The notes beneath the pieces are model-generated. The model did not search any database and was not told where the DNA came from. It worked only from the letters and a program-made list of their open reading frames with translations. A stretch of DNA of 21,223 bases from a virus, in IMG/VR virus record IMGVR_UViG_3300043803_001244, positions 1 through 21,223 of that record; one strand, written 5' to 3'. The position numbers were made by a program, and so were the translations under genes. Below, one piece after another: positions 6,732 through 19,320 of this stretch. Each line of letters opens with the position of its first letter. Position 1 is the stretch's first letter.

Positions 6732-7085
6732 TCACCTATTCAATGGTCTGATTTGAGCGGGTTTTCCAGAAACATCGGTTCTTCCAGATGGAACTAACTG
6801 ATTTAATCTTGCTTGCTGTGCTTGCCTTCTTTGCTGAGCCAGTTTGATAGCCGCAGGTGCTAGAACTTCAGATCCTACAGCAGCACCAACAGCAGGGAGA
6901 GTAAACCGACCCATCCCAATTCCAGCAGTTCCAACATTTACTAACTTATCCACCATTGGATTTTTAGCAACTTTTTTTATTGCTTCTCCACCTAAAACAG
7001 CACCAGCAACTCTTGATACCTTTCCAACATTAATAAACTCATCCAACTGATATGCTTCTACGCAAAACTGTTTAAAAGTTTTCAT
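6732..7085 (-). CDS. Putative head-internal protein with capsid-targeting-like start and glycine-rich segments, 117 aa
   Basis: The start at 7085 overlaps the stop of the gene at 7082-8488 by 4 nt (ATGA) and has AAGGAAG upstream. The N-terminus MKTFKQFCVEA resembles the capsid-targeting sequence of T4 internal proteins (MKTYQEFIAEA), where the gp21 protease cuts after Glu; a second possible site is LDE at residues 14-16. Residues about 20-85 contain small-residue helices (AGAVLGGEAI, VGTAGIGMGR, AVGAAVGSEVLAPAAI) that may insert in membranes. The C-terminus is Gln/Arg-rich. Packaging into the head with ejection on infection is an attractive inference, not shown. Confidence 0.72.
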   Translation of the reverse strand: MKTFKQFCVEAYQLDEFINVGKVSRVAGAVLGGEAIKKVAKNPMVDKLVNVGTAGIGMGRFTLPAVGAAVGSEVLAPAAIKLAQQRRQAQQARLNQLVPSGRTDVSGKPAQIRPLNR

Positions 7086-8488
7086 TTGTTTCTTCCTTGC
7101 TGTTGAGACCTTGACCAATTACCATAAGACTTACCTGCCTGAGTAACAAAGTCTCCAAATGCCTTTCTTGCTCCCGCAGGAACTTGTTTTCTTACTTCAT
7201 AAGGAACTGCTTTTCTAATATTAGTAAGAACACCCTTAGTTGTTAATTTCTTTAAAGGATCTCCAGTAACTGCCTTATATGCTGCTGATCCAACATTTGC
7301 ACCAAGACTGTATCCAGCGGCGCCGCCAGCAATTGCTCCAGGAAGTCCAAGTGCAGATCCAACGGTGGCACCAACTCCACCACCAATAAAACTTCCAAGT
7401 CCTCTTGCTGCTCCAGCACCTAATGATCTTTTCTGACTTGCACCTTCTCTTCTTGCAGTCTCATAACCACCTTTTGCCTCAAGTCCAGATCCAACAACGC
7501 TGAGAGCAGTTCCAGCACCTTTAACCGCTTTTGCAAACTTAAGTGCTCCTTTTGCTTTTTCTGCTGCCTTTCTTGCTTCTCTATTTTGCAATACTTGGTC
7601 AACTGCTTTACCAACACTACTTGGAGTCATTGCTACAGTAGATTTTGGCGTCGATACTGATAACGGAGTTACTTTTGGTGCTTTTGGTGTTTTTGGTAAT
7701 GAAGTATCCCCAAGATTGATATTTTGCGTTTTTAACTTTGGTGCTGCAGGTTTTGAAGATGGTTCTGGTGGAAGTTTATCTATCGCTTTCAATACTCTTT
7801 GGTGGTAACCACGCTGCTTTTCATAGTTTGCAATATCTTTTGCAGCATCAGAAGCTGCTTGCGCTCTTCTTCCGGCACCTGTTCCCAATTGACCAGAAAG
7901 TGCTGCAGCAGACTGTGCAGAAGTTGATGGTCTTGCCATTCTTTGCAATCTTGAGATATCACTTCGTGATGGAGAAGGCTGACTAACACTACGAGAGAAT
8001 CCTCTAAAAGAAGTACCAGACTGAACTGGATAGTTTTTTACTATGCTTTTTACACCCTTCTTAATCTCACTTCTTGCTGCTCTTCTTTCTGGTTTTGAAG
8101 AAGAAATAGCTCTTTGGAATAGAGTTCTCTTTTCGGCAGAAACATTTGCAGGATTAATACCATATTTTGAAGGATCCTTTCCTGGATCACCGTACCCAAG
8201 AGCAGATGCTCTAATTCTATTTGTTACAACACCTTTTTCCTGAACTCTACCTTCTGGACTTACATAACCTTTTTTTATTCCTTCTAATCTTTTCTTTTCT
8301 TCCGCACTAGATTTAATATCGGCAGATACTTGTGCTTGCTTTATGACTTTTGTTTTTTTAGATTTTGGTTTAGAAGTTTCTCCCTCTGGTTGCATGGGGA
8401 GAATTTCTGGTCCAGAAATTCTAATCTTAGGTTTATCTGGAACCTCTGCCTCTACAATAGTATTCGCAAAATTCTGAAACGACTTCAT
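7082..8488 (-). CDS. Putative head-internal or ejected protein with glycine-zipper domain, 468 aa
   Basis: The N-terminus MKSFQNFANTIVEAEVP has the [MK][ST][FY]xxF pattern of T4 capsid-targeting sequences, with IVE before A fitting the gp21 cleavage consensus (I/L)xE. Residues about 20-300 are basic, Lys/Ser/Pro/Ala-rich and probably disordered. Residues about 310-410 hold a long glycine zipper (AGTALSVVGSGLEAKGG, LGSFIGGGVGATVGSALGLP, GAIAGGAAGYSLGANVGSAA), a pattern found in pore-forming and membrane-spanning proteins. The C-terminal 50 residues are basic. It is the first gene after a TATAAATA late promoter at 8512 and is coupled to the gene at 6732-7085. It may be packaged and help DNA cross the membrane. 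Confidence 0.78.
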   Translation of the reverse strand: MKSFQNFANTIVEAEVPDKPKIRISGPEILPMQPEGETSKPKSKKTKVIKQAQVSADIKSSAEEKKRLEGIKKGYVSPEGRVQEKGVVTNRIRASALGYGDPGKDPSKYGINPANVSAEKRTLFQRAISSSKPERRAARSEIKKGVKSIVKNYPVQSGTSFRGFSRSVSQPSPSRSDISRLQRMARPSTSAQSAAALSGQLGTGAGRRAQAASDAAKDIANYEKQRGYHQRVLKAIDKLPPEPSSKPAAPKLKTQNINLGDTSLPKTPKAPKVTPLSVSTPKSTVAMTPSSVGKAVDQVLQNREARKAAEKAKGALKFAKAVKGAGTALSVVGSGLEAKGGYETARREGASQKRSLGAGAARGLGSFIGGGVGATVGSALGLPGAIAGGAAGYSLGANVGSAAYKAVTGDPLKKLTTKGVLTNIRKAVPYEVRKQVPAGARKAFGDFVTQAGKSYGNWSRSQQQGRNK

Positions 8489-15018: not shown

Positions 15019-16911
15019 TCAGTCAAACCTTGAACTTTGCATATCTTGTGATCTTTGAGCAGCAGCACGACGCATTGCTACTTTTTGAGCAGGAGATCTT
15101 GGTCCACCATATTCACCAGCGGCAGGTGGTTTCTTACCAGGAACCTTTTTCTGCTGTCCTTTTGGAGTTCCCTCCATTTTACGAATACTCTTTTTCACCA
15201 TACGATATGCTGGATCAGAAGAACCACCACTTTCTTTTCCTTGCTCTCTTTCAAGACGATTTAATTCATCAAGTTGATCACCATCTGGTTCATAAGATTG
15301 ATTTATAACTTGCTGAGTTCTAGCAGCAACTTGTCTTTGGAGAGGAGTTTGTGGTTGACGCTTTTGCATCATTTTATCATTTGTACCTGTACCCAATGTA
15401 TTGGCAGCACTCTTAATGGCACCCTTAATAGCAAAACCAACAGGATCTGTCAAATTTCTTTGCAGATTTCTAGCACCTTGCTCATAAGGTGTTCTTGGAT
15501 TGGAAAGAATTGCTGCTCCAAGTCGAGATGCACCAACACTTAAACCCATTCCCTCTTCAACCGTTTCTTCAGAAGCAACCATTACAATAGGGTTTTTGGC
15601 ACCCATTGCTCTTAACTTATTTTTAATTAAGTTAGTTTTTGCATAATCGCCACGAGTATCTCTTTCCTTTTCTTTATCACTACCCTTATCATCACACCCA
15701 CAGTCTGCTGCTTCTGCTACTTTTTCAGGAAGACCTTTGTGCTTAGTCTTTGCAAACTTCTTAGCTTCTTTCTTAGTCATACCTTCGGCAGCCTTTGCAA
15801 CCTCAGGTGACGCTGGTTTTTCACCCTTCTTAGCAGCATAAACCATTCCCATAAAACGCTGCTGTGCCTTACTCATTGCTTTTTCAGCAATCAGTTCGCC
15901 TTCAAGTTCTGTTCCTGCTTGAATGATGCGCTTACTCGCTTCTGGATTAGAGGAATCATCAGGAAAAACTTTTACAACATTTTTTCCCTTCATCACATCA
16001 ATTTTATTAACGTTAGAATTTGGGTTTGCACTATCACCAGCAGCATCTGCAATAAACTCTTCGTTGCGAGTTGCAATTGCTTTACCAATTGCCTTACGAC
16101 GCTTATGAAGATACTTATCGGTCTTATCATTATCACCATCATTATCAATATCAGCATCCTCTTGTCCAACTGGATCAAGTCCTTCTTTTCTCATTGCAAT
16201 TGCACTACCAATTGCCTTACGACGCTTTAGAAGATATCTATCAGACTTGTCATGATCACCGTCATTATCAACATCTTTGTCTTCTTTACCTACTGGATCC
16301 AACTTTTTCTTACCACCGCCACCTAAAGCACGTGCGGTGCTTTCACCACGTCTTTTTTCACCTTCATAAGGTTCACCATGCTCGGTCATTTCAACTTTAA
16401 GACCTCTTCCTCTCAGTTGAGTGATCTTTTCACGAGTTGCATATCTCACATAAGAACGATTGTTCTTTACATCGGTAACTCTTACCTTATACTTTCTTTC
16501 TTGCTCTTCTGCTAGTTGTTGCTCATAAGGAAGTTCAATAACCTCTTCCTTTTGAACTCCCTCAACAAAAACCTTGAACATTGCGTTTGCAACAGTATCA
16601 ACTGCCCAGTCAACACTTTCAAATGCGTATTGCTCAGAAACTCCACCACCCTTTCCAAAAAGTTTTGCTTTTACAGCAGTTCTTTCTGCAGGATTCAATG
16701 AACTGTGAGACATATACTGAGAGAATGCCTGTCTCAGATCCATCTCCTCTCTTCTTGCACGATAGCGAATATCGTAAACTGCCTGACGAATTCTTTTCTC
16801 AGAAGACTCTTCTGTAGCACCCTTGCCCTTTTCATCTTTTTTTGCAGCGGCAGCTGCAGCAGCAGGAGCGTGCTTTCTCGCTGGAAGTTCCTCAACAATG
16901 TGCTTACTCAT
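15019..16911 (-). CDS. Large low-complexity virion-type protein with duplicated EF-hand-like loops, 630 aa
   Basis: After an Ala/Lys-rich start (residues 11-30), residues about 37-130 form an ordered helical domain (RQAVYDIRYRARREEMDLRQ). Residues 204-285 are two 41-residue repeats (LDPVGxED, then a 12-residue loop, then a basic RRKAIGxAIA helix). The loops at 213-224 (DVDNDGDHDKSD) and 254-265 (DIDNDGDNDKTD) have Asp at every EF-hand ligand position. The rest is charged and disordered with a CGC motif near residue 400. No enzyme motif is visible. A late box (CATAAATA) lies 36 nt upstream. The features suggest a virion, scaffold or head-internal protein that binds calcium; this is inference. 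Confidence 0.78.
   Translation of the reverse strand: MSKHIVEELPARKHAPAAAAAAAKKDEKGKGATEESSEKRIRQAVYDIRYRARREEMDLRQAFSQYMSHSSLNPAERTAVKAKLFGKGGGVSEQYAFESVDWAVDTVANAMFKVFVEGVQKEEVIELPYEQQLAEEQERKYKVRVTDVKNNRSYVRYATREKITQLRGRGLKVEMTEHGEPYEGEKRRGESTARALGGGGKKKLDPVGKEDKDVDNDGDHDKSDRYLLKRRKAIGSAIAMRKEGLDPVGQEDADIDNDGDNDKTDKYLHKRRKAIGKAIATRNEEFIADAAGDSANPNSNVNKIDVMKGKNVVKVFPDDSSNPEASKRIIQAGTELEGELIAEKAMSKAQQRFMGMVYAAKKGEKPASPEVAKAAEGMTKKEAKKFAKTKHKGLPEKVAEAADCGCDDKGSDKEKERDTRGDYAKTNLIKNKLRAMGAKNPIVMVASEETVEEGMGLSVGASRLGAAILSNPRTPYEQGARNLQRNLTDPVGFAIKGAIKSAANTLGTGTNDKMMQKRQPQTPLQRQVAARTQQVINQSYEPDGDQLDELNRLEREQGKESGGSSDPAYRMVKKSIRKMEGTPKGQQKKVPGKKPPAAGEYGGPRSPAQKVAMRRAAAQRSQDMQSSRFD
16057..16302. 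repeat. Tandem 123-bp repeat encoding EF-hand-like modules
   Basis: Two adjacent 123-bp units (16180-16302 and 16057-16179) encode residues 204-244 and 245-285 of the 630-aa protein. They match over nearly the whole 41-residue period and are still clearly alike at DNA level (for example ACCAATTGCCTTACGACGCT in both), pointing to a duplication within the gene. Confidence 0.85.
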
Positions 16912-16926
16912 TTGGGGATTTTTTAA

Positions 16927-18219
16927 TTACTTACTTTTCCTATACTTATTTATGAAATTCAATCCGAAGTTCTTTTGACCAAATGCAACATTCTCAGTTC
17001 CTAACTGAGAACCAGGTGTTTGCTGAGCAGCATACTTCAAATATCCTGTTGTTCCAACTAAAGTATTTGGTTTTCCAGGAAGTCTCATCTTTCTATCCAT
17101 TCTCTTTTCTTGATAGACTTCCATCACATCTTTAATCCAAGACTTAAACATAATATTATCTTCGGTTACACAAATCAAATAGTTTGTGCCTCTACGAATA
17201 ATGCGACCAACAAGACCAGTATTTAAGTTTTCTACAAGTTGACCAATTCTAAAAATAACTTCTCCAAGATAGTTCTCACGAAGAGTTTGTGAATCAAACT
17301 TTGGAGCAATCTCCCAGACTTCTGCAACCTGATCCTGAATACCCATTGCAGTGCGAACAGTATCAAAAACTGCTCTTGCATCTTTGGGTTTCATCTCTGG
17401 AGGCATTCCTAAACGAAATGTCTTAAAGTCTCCCTCTGCTGCAGCAAGTCTCATTCTTGAAGCAGAGAGACCTTCTACACCTTCAGAGTCTGGATCACGA
17501 TCACCAGCAGAAATTACCTCAATATTATCAAAGGCATAAAGGTTTCCATTATAATTATTGGCAAGTTTATCAAACTCTTTAACTCTATCTCCACCACCAA
17601 CTATTCTTACATTTGTATATCCATCATTATGTGCTTTCTTTAGAACATCAAAAATAGTTCTAGTATTTCCATCATTGACAATTCTCTCACTATGTTGAGG
17701 GAACATCGAACGCATTAATGTTACTTTAGTATCAGGATCAAGTGGATTCTTTTTCGGATCCTGACTGCGCGAAGGAACGATCATATAGTCACTTCCTTCT
17801 TGCTCCGCAGAAGCAGCAGCAGTATCCATCAACTGAAGATGCCCTAAATGTGGCGGGTTGAAACGACCAAAAGCAATCGTAAGTGTACCTTTAGTTTTTT
17901 CTACTGGTAAGAAATTAACTGGGGGTGCTTCTTGAGCAACTGGTTGTGGCGCTGCTTGTGGAGCAGGTTCCTGTTGCTGCTGCAATGCAGGATCCACAAA
18001 GTTTGGATTTGAAATATTTTTTTCTTTCTCTGTTTGTGCTGGATCTTTTCCACCAACTTTTTGACGCTTATTATAAAACTTGAGAGTTCCCCTTACTGTT
18101 TTAGCAACAAACTCTCCAGTTGCACGATCATACCACCCACCGTGTCCATCACCAACAAGACCCATTCTTGCTGCTTGTTGGGAAGCACTTTCAGATAAAA
18201 ATTGGAAAAAACTTTTCAT
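16927..18219 (-). CDS. Cytidylyltransferase-like nucleotidyltransferase with capsid-targeting-like N-terminus, 430 aa
   Basis: Residues 1-11 (MKSFFQFLSES) resemble the T4 internal-protein capsid-targeting sequence (MKTYQEFIAEA); LSE before S fits gp21 cleavage. Residues about 80-100 are a Gln/Pro/Ala linker. Residues 110-275 form a nucleotidyltransferase domain of the HxGH superfamily: TIAFGRFNPPHLGHLQLMD with HLGH at 124-127, VRIVGGGDRV, and SASRMR at 252-257 in place of the usual ISSTxIR. Relatives include NMN, pantetheine-phosphate and glycerol-3-phosphate nucleotidyltransferases; the substrate is not clear. Residues 310-370 form a further domain (GLVGRIIRRGTNYLICVTED, FKSWIKDVMEV). The start overlaps the previous stop by 1 nt. 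An enzyme packaged in the head and delivered with the DNA is possible. Confidence 0.82.
   Translation of the reverse strand: MKSFFQFLSESASQQAARMGLVGDGHGGWYDRATGEFVAKTVRGTLKFYNKRQKVGGKDPAQTEKEKNISNPNFVDPALQQQQEPAPQAAPQPVAQEAPPVNFLPVEKTKGTLTIAFGRFNPPHLGHLQLMDTAAASAEQEGSDYMIVPSRSQDPKKNPLDPDTKVTLMRSMFPQHSERIVNDGNTRTIFDVLKKAHNDGYTNVRIVGGGDRVKEFDKLANNYNGNLYAFDNIEVISAGDRDPDSEGVEGLSASRMRLAAAEGDFKTFRLGMPPEMKPKDARAVFDTVRTAMGIQDQVAEVWEIAPKFDSQTLRENYLGEVIFRIGQLVENLNTGLVGRIIRRGTNYLICVTEDNIMFKSWIKDVMEVYQEKRMDRKMRLPGKPNTLVGTTGYLKYAAQQTPGSQLGTENVAFGQKNFGLNFINKYRKSK
16947..16954 (-). promoter_or_regulatory. Late promoter box CATAAATA
   Basis: CATAAATA lies inside the last codons of the nucleotidyltransferase gene, 35 nt before the start at 16911. 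It would let the 630-aa gene be transcribed separately at late times. Confidence 0.55.
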
Positions 18220-18437
18220 TACTTATTTTTATTTTTACGAAGTTCGGAAGTTATTGCTCGTTCGTTAGAGACAATATACCCTAAGATACTTTTTCTTATC
18301 TTTATATATTTATCCTTATCCACTTTCTTCCGTTGAGCATCAGATTCTTTTTGAAGAGTAGTATAAACATATCCAGCAAAATCTTTAAAGTCTTTGCCCT
18401 TAAAATCTTGAATGAGTTTTTGTAAATATTCTTTCAT
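18219..18437 (-). CDS. Small basic helical protein, 72 aa
   Basis: The product (MKEYLQKLIQDFKGKDFKDF and on to SELRKNKNK) is helical and lysine-rich. It overlaps the stop of the PD-(D/E)XK-like gene by 4 nt (ATGA) and its own stop overlaps the nucleotidyltransferase start by 1 nt (TAATG), so three genes are translationally coupled. No family is recognised. The coupling suggests it is made together with, and may act with, the nuclease-like protein or the nucleotidyltransferase. Confidence 0.72.
   Translation of the reverse strand: MKEYLQKLIQDFKGKDFKDFAGYVYTTLQKESDAQRKKVDKDKYIKIRKSILGYIVSNERAITSELRKNKNK
18307..18314 (-). promoter_or_regulatory. Possible late promoter box GATAAATA inside the 72-aa gene
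   Basis: GATAAATA occurs 88 nt before the nucleotidyltransferase start. The region is A/T- and Lys-rich, so chance is a real possibility. Confidence 0.25.
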
Positions 18438-19114
18438 TGTCCCATAAGAAATCCAACACCCTTATCAATATCATATTTTGATCTTGGTGGTTTTGAAGTA
18501 ATTTGAAGAGCAGTTGTAAAACGATAGTTATATATTGGAGAACTACCACCCCTCTTTAAACGAATACGAATTCTCAAACCAGGACTAAACTGGGGGATAG
18601 GTAACCCAGCAGGATTTGCTGCCATATAATACATCCCATACCCACCAATTTGAATATAATAGGTTGACTTTGCACCATAGTAAGACCAGAGAGCACTTGA
18701 TGGTATCGTTAAAAACCTATCGGTAAATCTTCTATAATCAGAAGAAACCATTTCCTGAGTGAAATCTTTATTATCAATGGTTCCTTTATTTGGTGGTCCT
18801 TTAGGTCCCCATTCTTTATTTGCAAATGCTTCAATACCAACTGCTCTCATAAGTTGGCGAAGTTCATCTGCCGCTGCAGTTTTTGCTCCACCTAAAACCC
18901 ATTTTCCATTTACATATTCGAAACTACCTTGTCCGTAGTCCGCTTTAAGATCAAGTTTAACTTCCAACTTATATGGTTTTCCATTATAAATGAACATTGC
19001 GTCAGGAGCATTTGGATCTGACCCAGCAGGAGTAAAACCTTTTGGAACTAGTCCTTTTGATTTTAAACTATTATGGACTCTTCCTTCGTAAAGAAACCCC
19101 TGTTCGCCAGCCAT
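18434..19114 (-). CDS. PD-(D/E)XK-like nuclease-fold protein, 226 aa
   Basis: Residues 10-53 fit the PD-(D/E)XK core: E10 in the first helix (LYEGRVHNSLK), P37-D38 in APDAMF, and E51-x-K53 in KLEVKLD. The spacing between D38 and E51 (13 residues across a beta-turn) is normal for the fold. The C-terminal half is aromatic and glycine-rich (YYIQIGGYGMYYMAANPAGL) and ends MGQ. The likely activity is DNA cleavage or DNA-end or branch processing; the target is unknown. A late-type box joins the tRNA-Leu 3' end to this gene's leader. The downstream gene is coupled by ATGA. I recall relatives in T4-like cyanophages without a known role. Confidence 0.75.
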   Translation of the reverse strand: MAGEQGFLYEGRVHNSLKSKGLVPKGFTPAGSDPNAPDAMFIYNGKPYKLEVKLDLKADYGQGSFEYVNGKWVLGGAKTAAADELRQLMRAVGIEAFANKEWGPKGPPNKGTIDNKDFTQEMVSSDYRRFTDRFLTIPSSALWSYYGAKSTYYIQIGGYGMYYMAANPAGLPIPQFSPGLRIRIRLKRGGSSPIYNYRFTTALQITSKPPRSKYDIDKGVGFLMGQ

Positions 19115-19126
19115 TAGCTTTTATTG

Positions 19127-19134
19127 ATATTTAG
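19127..19134 (-). promoter_or_regulatory. Late-promoter-like box CTAAATAT abutting tRNA-Leu
   Basis: CTAAATAT begins at the base after the tRNA-Leu discriminator base, 12 nt before the ATG at 19114. A tRNA end and a late-type box share a junction with no spacer. Confidence 0.45.
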
Positions 19135-19216
19135 TGCCCAAAAGAGGACTTGAACCTCCACAGAATACTCTACTGGAACCTAAACCCAGCGCGTCTACCA
19201 ATTCCGCCATTTGGGC
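19135..19216 (-). tRNA. tRNA-Leu (anticodon TAG)
   Basis: The 82-nt cloverleaf on the minus strand has acceptor GCCCAAA/TTTGGGC, a D-arm with AATTGGTAGACGC, anticodon stem CTGGG/TCCAG with loop TTTAGGT (anticodon TAG), a type II variable arm (AGA/TCT stem) and T-loop TTCAAGT. The discriminator base is A. CCA is not encoded, so it must be added by the host. It reads CUN leucine codons. Confidence 0.95.
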
Positions 19217-19219
19217 ATT

Positions 19220-19243
19220 ATTTGCTATTTGCAAATAGCAAAT
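19220..19243. repeat. Perfect 24-nt palindrome between the two tRNA genes
   Basis: ATTTGCTATTTG is followed directly by its exact reverse complement. As RNA it would fold into a 10-bp stem with a TGCA loop. It fills all but three bases of the gap between tRNA-Ala and tRNA-Leu and includes the tRNA-Ala discriminator base. It may guide processing of the two-tRNA transcript. Confidence 0.85.
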
Positions 19244-19315
19244 GGAGAATAGGGGACTCGAACCCCTCACCCCCGCCGTGCAAAGGCGGTGCTCTACCAA
19301 ATGAGCTAATTCCCC
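19243..19315 (-). tRNA. tRNA-Ala (anticodon TGC)
   Basis: The 73-nt cloverleaf on the minus strand has acceptor GGGGAAT/ATTCTCC (one G-U pair), D-arm GCTCATTTGGTAGAGC, anticodon stem CCGCC/GGCGG with loop TTTGCAC (anticodon TGC) and T-arm AGGGG-TTCGAGT-CCCCT. The discriminator base is A and CCA is not encoded. It reads GCN alanine codons. Confidence 0.95.
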
Positions 19316-19320
19316 AGAAA

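Follow-up and report, generated by a model that had tools for sequence, protein, structure and literature searches.

The question raised by this locus is whether a T4-like cyanophage carries an enzyme inside its head and delivers it along with the DNA when it infects a host cell. The window analyzed here is a virus sequence of 21,223 nucleotides (IMG/VR record IMGVR_UViG_3300043803_001244), and the gene concerned lies on its minus strand. The original prediction held that this gene encodes a nucleotidyltransferase that may be packaged into the phage head, and our sequence analysis supports that interpretation. Metabolic and regulatory enzymes have been found in several cyanophage virion proteomes, and two of the papers leave open whether they are cargo or contamination. 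The presence of the enzyme in virions and the T4 tag were already known separately. Among open-licence papers we found none that joins the tag to cyanophage enzymes, and a search of the literature for 'capsid targeting' together with cyanophages gave one review, with no mention of tagged enzymes.

Results

Layout of the tagged nucleotidyltransferase

The ORF that runs from an ATG at 18219 to 16927 on the minus strand is a real gene, and its product is 430 amino acids long. The protein matches phrog_395 ('cytidyltransferase') with an E value of 4e-101, and residues 115 to 216 match Pfam PF01467 at 2e-8 (34.9 bits against a curated cut-off of 21), which bears out the claim of an HxGH nucleotidyltransferase domain. 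The only Pfam matches are CTP_transf_like and FAD_syn, the latter below cut-off. The translated ORF indeed starts with MKSFFQFLSES. Residues 1 to 10, MKSFFQFLSE (18190 to 18219, minus strand, as are all parts of this gene), form the predicted capsid-targeting sequence, based on their conservation in 44 homologs and their match to T4 IPII and IPIII, including the positions mapped genetically in IPIII (PMC9026906). A gp21 cut is predicted at the E10/S11 boundary, after nucleotide 18190 on the coding strand. A small DGHG module follows at residues 12 to 50 (18070 to 18186), which contains MGLVGDGHGGWYDRATGEFVAKTVRGTLKFY and is shared with the kinase and the Cas9-annotated protein of S-CREM2 virions. 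Next come a Gln/Pro/Ala-rich linker at residues 51 to 109 (17893 to 18069), the HxGH nucleotidyltransferase domain at residues 110 to 295 (17335 to 17892), supported by structural matches and invariant motifs, and an additional C-terminal domain. The enzyme domain contains GRFNPPHLGH, of which the catalytic HLGH motif occupies residues 124 to 127 (17839 to 17850).

An AlphaFold2 model built on the 44-sequence alignment gave pLDDT values of about 90 over most of the enzyme domain, 72 to 75 over most of the DGHG module, 71 to 78 for the C-terminal domain and below 45 for most of the linker. The disordered linker that had been proposed between tag and enzyme thus holds for residues 51 to 109 but not for residues 12 to 50, which form the small conserved module. 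The linker is also the least conserved part, with the protein's lowest mean conservation, 0.19, over residues 61 to 109. The extra C-terminal domain was correctly foreseen: it is conserved over residues ~310 to 370, with strands predicted at 328 to 361 and a small beta-rich core at residues 326 to 362 (17134 to 17244). It matches phrog_4808 and phrog_22379 and is a separate gene in phage MED4-213.

Conservation of the tag

In T4, IPII and IPIII start with MKTYQEFIAEA and IPI starts with MKTFKEFTSTTTPVSTITEA, i.e., MKTFKEF...ITEA (read from NC_000866). According to a review of IPIII genetics, residues 4 and 7 are the main determinants of targeting, residues 8 and 10 those of processing, and gp21 cleaves after L/I-x-E (PMC9026906). 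In an alignment of 44 diverse homologs of the window protein, F4 and F7 never vary, M1 and E10 are each kept in at least 90% (E10 in 42 of 44), and position 8 is L or I in 41, so the gp21-type site [LI]-x-E is present at tag positions 8 to 10. Residue 11 is S in the window protein, and A is usual elsewhere. The likeness to the T4 sequence on which the original prediction was built covers the four positions that are critical in IPIII.

Across four lineages, the F, F and E of an F-x-x-F-[LIVF]-x-E core do not differ among the 100 distinct N termini, with the other positions variable. These N termini are those that matched a scan pattern demanding E, plus an aromatic residue or leucine at both F positions; since the pattern already fixes E and allows other aromatics or leucine, the informative part is that both positions are always F. 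The tag is common to lineages whose linkers have diverged or were lost: the DGHG module follows it in the window and S-SM1 lineages, and the S-CREM2 and S-SZBM1 proteins run from it almost directly into the enzyme. A distant member in the Methylophilales phage Melnitz-1 starts with MKKFSEIIEA. In ten complete cyanophage genomes (1.83 Mb), a degenerate DNA pattern for MKxFxxF[LF]xEA gave six matches, all at the start codon of the tagged enzyme gene; the reversed control gave no match. These data support the prediction that residues 1 to 10 are a T4-type capsid-targeting sequence.

Relatives occur in 531 phage records, mostly of Synechococcus and Prochlorococcus phages, the closest named one being that of Synechococcus phage S-SRM01 (67% identity; MKNFHQFITEA). 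The enzyme also exists without the tag, as a stand-alone protein of 180 to 190 amino acids in the split-gene cyanophages S-CAM3 and MED4-213 and in the jumbo phages Muenster, XaC1 and PA5oct. In MED4-213, the gene after the enzyme carries the C-terminal domain and starts with MKSLADFTKKSKVAEA, a possible IPI-style tag. Homologs that keep the enzyme and lack the motif, named beforehand as evidence against packaging, were thus found only outside the clade, which fits packaging as a trait of this clade and not one tied to the enzyme itself.

Tagged homologs in virions

Homologs have been detected by mass spectrometry in the virions of four other phages: T4-GC190 of S-SM1 (PMC3037559), ORF91 of S-SCSM1 (PMC9602691), S-SZBM1_140 of S-SZBM1 (two peptides; PMC9146016) and ORF154 of S-CREM2 (three peptides; PMC10665884). 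All four carry the tag (MKKFSAFLNEA, MKSFLQFLKEA, MRFRQFIIEA and MKNFSSFLTEA, respectively). An NMNAT of S-CBWM1 is cited in this literature too. For S-CREM1, only 14 virion proteins were reported, with no such enzyme named among them in the text of the paper. A targeting sequence is not mentioned in the available parts of the virion-proteome papers on the tagged homologs.

The authors of the S-SCSM1 (PMC9602691) and S-CREM2 (PMC10665884) papers allow for co-purification or contamination. Together with the existence of tag-less homologs, this would suit an abundant metabolic enzyme of the cytoplasm that carries over into virion preparations and whose N-terminal helix serves another role, such as oligomerization or partner binding. 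We consider this improbable, as conservation falls on the residues of the T4 capsid-targeting sequence, detection was repeated across independent phages and laboratories, and unrelated S-CREM2 virion proteins carry the same tag. This last point comes from a scan of the start codons in all of the S-CREM2 genome beyond its first 3 kb. The motif was found at the start of five annotated genes: those for the SAM hydrolase (SAM lyase) gp6 (MKDFDSFLEE), the kinase gp14 (VKRFDAFLTEE), gp13 (MKDLHSFLTEQ), gp136 (MQTFSMFFSED) and the nucleotidyltransferase gp154. Each of these proteins belongs to the 52 of 219 that were detected by mass spectrometry, an enrichment (P = 6.5e-4, or 0.003 without gp154) that comes from a small sample and a motif defined from the tagged-enzyme family and T4. 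Three more matches lie away from annotated starts.

The APH-like kinase gp14 also has the DGHG module of the window enzyme, and so does the 'Cas9' virion protein gp12 of S-CREM2, where the module follows LRFASFMAEA starting at residue 17. RFASFMAEA in gp12 is preceded by a CTG codon, so a merely misannotated start does not readily explain its position. The Cas9 label itself is unsupported by Pfam, with no match at an E value of 0.01. Two annotated S-SCSM1 genes begin with the motif; the product of one, the enzyme, was detected, and that of the other, a 106-amino-acid protein, is not marked as detected. Downstream of the enzyme gene in the window, a 630-amino-acid protein (15019 to 16911) has repeated EF-hand-like DxDNDGDxD segments and a DUF3008 module, both of which recur in neighboring S-SCSM1 virion proteins.

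Processing machinery, gene order and promoters

The prohead protease family of gp21 (PF03420) is encoded in all eight relatives examined as well as in T4; the 21-kb window record holds no head genes. Major capsid proteins of the relatives have a comparable [LI]xE/[AT] site at about residue 50 to 60 (SFLSE/A in S-SRM01, SFLAE/A in S-SCSM1, LLTE/A in S-CREM2 and ILTE/T in S-SM1), where we assume cleavage by analogy with T4 gp23.

In several relatives the enzyme gene lies between gp41/mazG and gp61-nrdA-nrdB, and the window, with its genes recognized by eye, appears to have the same order. A 226-amino-acid gene (18434 to 19114) heads a run of genes (19114 > 18437 > 18219) that includes the enzyme gene. 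A CTAAATA on the minus strand at 19128 to 19134, 20 nucleotides upstream of this gene, is a candidate late-type promoter that is weak on its own. The site abuts the end of a tRNA-Leu gene, and genes for tRNA-Leu and tRNA-Ala directly precede the transcription unit, at 19134 to 19316. The 226-amino-acid protein has no Pfam match and belongs to phrog_26930, whose function is unassigned; by eye, an E-V-K stretch resembles PD-(D/E)xK nucleases. Closer to the enzyme, a late-promoter-like ATAAATA on the minus strand (18307 to 18313) lies ~94 nucleotides upstream of its start, inside a 72-amino-acid ORF. It is placed similarly in many relatives, and coding constraint may account for this position. 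Upstream of tagged ORFs in other contigs, ATAAATA did not outperform some of the permuted AT heptamers, and we rejected it as evidence for late promoters.

A DUF6267 gene (L087:22296-23270; T4-GC71 in S-SM1) adjoins the enzyme gene and holds this position in many contigs. By blastp at the locus level, the two adjoin in 67 of 80 contigs of the S-SM1 lineage, 69 of 80 of the S-SZBM1 lineage and 17 of 80 of the window lineage. The protein has invariant KxDG, EGxV and KxVxR motifs, and its leading structural matches are RNA and DNA ligases, with a weak best Z score of 7.0; Foldseek gave no significant match for it. These motifs and model comparisons suggest that DUF6267 may be a divergent ligase-type covalent nucleotidyltransferase. 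A DUF6267-enzyme fusion, as suggested by phrog_455, was not found as a single ORF in the loci examined.

Fold and possible substrate of the enzyme

The motifs GRF.NPP(H/T)xGH, KNPL, GxDR and SxSxxR show no or almost no variation in homologs down to 36% identity to the window protein, and (H/T)xGH and SxSxxR are present in all 44. Conservation of these catalytic residues bears on a second alternative, namely that it is packaged as an internal protein with a structural or DNA-condensing role and makes no use of its enzyme domain after infection. Head packaging alone would account for both the proteomics and the tag, but the catalytic residues are kept, and the tag-less relatives retain the enzyme domain alone; we regard this alternative as unlikely.

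Structure prediction of the enzyme domain, which had been proposed as a check, returned a PPAT- and NadD/NadM-like fold. The closest match is PPAT (Z score 13.9, rmsd 2.8 over 155 residues), followed by NadD and NadM at about 12 to 12.5, and the structural alignments to the PPAT, NadD and NadM entries listed have 11 to 19% identity. Weak sequence matches are mostly to NMNAT, NadD and NadR, including one phmmer match to a NadM at an E value of 0.41, and the profile search gave no relative in the PDB. The protein stays below the equivalog cut-offs for NMN/NaMN adenylyltransferases (TIGR00482, 20.9 bits against 112.45; TIGR01526, 16.8 against 341) and, despite the close fold, for PPAT/CoaD (TIGR01510, 16.2 against 103.3). 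As no equivalog cut-off is reached, we do not file it as an NMNAT, a PPAT or a cytidylyltransferase. The domain is of the HxGH adenylyltransferase type (NMNAT/PPAT fold), judged from its intact motifs and the model, with a predicted activity. The GRFxPxHxGH and NPxxxxxK patterns resemble those of NadM by eye, and for this reason we favor NMN or NaMN as the substrate, an assignment to which we give slightly less than an even chance.

A third alternative accepts packaging and makes the enzyme a true cytidylyltransferase, for example of the glycerol-3-phosphate type. Databases annotate it as a cytidyltransferase, and for the homologs the S-SZBM1 authors refer to glycerol-3-phosphate cytidylyltransferase (PMC9146016). 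The best structural and weak sequence matches described above point instead to PPAT and to the NMNAT, NadD and NadR group, the latter all under the family cut-offs. Glycerol-3-phosphate and choline-phosphate cytidylyltransferases are not among the best structural matches listed, an absence that amounts to no exclusion. We hold that a cytidylyltransferase has a small but real chance of being the correct reading.

Further candidate tagged proteins

Two more tag candidates lie in the window, judged by their N-terminal sequences. An ORF of 468 amino acids (7082 to 8488, minus strand) starts with MKSFQNFANTIVEA, which is IPI-like, and has TATAAATA 30 nucleotides upstream; an ORF of 117 amino acids (6732 to 7085, minus strand) starts with MKTFKQFCVEA. 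The two ORFs are consecutive and overlapping, both with CTS-like starts, and their bodies have glycine-rich stretches.

The stricter pattern MK[ST]FK[QE]F..EA, scanned among the IMG/VR loci examined, starts 84 ORFs, 80 of at least 40 amino acids, which fall into 41 clusters without detectable mutual similarity; these ORFs are not phylogenetically independent, and their contigs may not be T4-like. For comparison, a frame of at least 40 codons begins at just 28% of the ATGAAR sites that these contigs contain. The domains behind the tag include DPBB lytic transglycosylase, glucosaminidase, methyltransferase, LysM and one copy of the nucleotidyltransferase (locus L330). CTAAATA, which resembles the T4 late promoter, lies within 60 nucleotides upstream of 25 of 83 tagged ORFs; heptamers of the same letters average 1.6 of 83, and CTAAATA is found upstream of 7.4% of all long ORFs. 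An earlier count of 38 of 83 pools ATAAATA and CTAAATA, of which only CTAAATA passed the permutation control. Elsewhere in the window, the genes at 1021 to 1689 and 1788 to 2459 have like N termini ([IL]DLHNFFKFYD..N.NHV.AVQWLEDNLP) and different bodies, by eye lysozyme-like in the former and C39-type peptidase-like in the latter.

Discussion

The tag, together with the presence of tagged relatives in virions, indicates that the enzyme probably reaches the host along with the viral DNA. Based on the conservation of the tag, the published mass spectrometry of homologs and the motifs, we are fairly confident that a head-packaged, tag-directed and ejected enzyme of a T4-like cyanophage is the best explanation for this gene. 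Packaging in the window phage itself is what we infer from the tagged homologs detected in four other phages. F4 and F7 would steer the enzyme to the prohead core, and a gp21-type protease would then cut after E10 (L-S-E/S). The enzyme would remain in the head and be ejected with the DNA, and its HxGH adenylyltransferase domain would act in the host before phage gene expression. The most likely reaction would be the transfer of AMP from ATP onto a putative nucleotide-like acceptor, resulting in an NAD- or CoA-type product.

The protein shares with T4 IPI, IPII and IPIII a ten-residue N-terminal tag with aromatics at positions 4 and 7 and [LI]xE at positions 8 to 10, in the same setting of a T4-like phage. 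Whereas the T4 internal proteins are small and non-enzymatic, the cyanophage cargo is an enzyme of 400 amino acids with an extra module and a linker, and its cleavage and ejection are presumed. T4 Alt, a packaged ADP-ribosyltransferase with a propeptide of seven residues (PMC9026906), had been put forward as a parallel. The proposed logic of a head-carried enzyme for the start of infection is the same, but the likeness goes no further than that of a packaged enzyme, as a Pfam search of the window protein found no ADP-ribosyltransferase domain. The four virion proteins known as 'NMNAT/cytidylyltransferase' (S-SCSM1 ORF91, S-SM1 T4-GC190, S-SZBM1_140 and S-CREM2 ORF154) belong to the same family and have the same tag; they were published as virion associated or as possible contaminants, with the packaging mechanism unmentioned. 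With NadM, NadD and PPAT (CoaD), the window protein has in common (H/T)xGH, SxSxxR and the fold, but it differs from them in its low identity and in falling below every equivalog cut-off.

That capsid-targeting sequences let T4-like phages package various proteins was already suggested in a review (PMC9026906). Our broader proposal, which is tentative and about as likely to be wrong as right, if not slightly more so, is that one interchangeable T4-type tag, sometimes with the DGHG module, loads varied effectors into marine T4-like heads for delivery at time zero (the nucleotidyltransferase, SAM lyase, kinase, Cas9-annotated protein, methyltransferase and cell-wall hydrolases). The window enzyme would then build or restore NAD-type dinucleotides of the host before phage genes are read, possibly against NAD-depleting defenses or to supply the neighboring ligase-like DUF6267 enzyme.

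The advance lies in a mechanism for an ambiguous virion observation and in a sequence rule for finding more cargo. A conserved, genetically defined tag on virion enzymes makes the question of cargo directly testable, and with it candidate packaged effectors of abundant marine phages can be recognized by their sequences alone. The tag also suggests that some so-called auxiliary metabolic genes may act at injection and not after expression.
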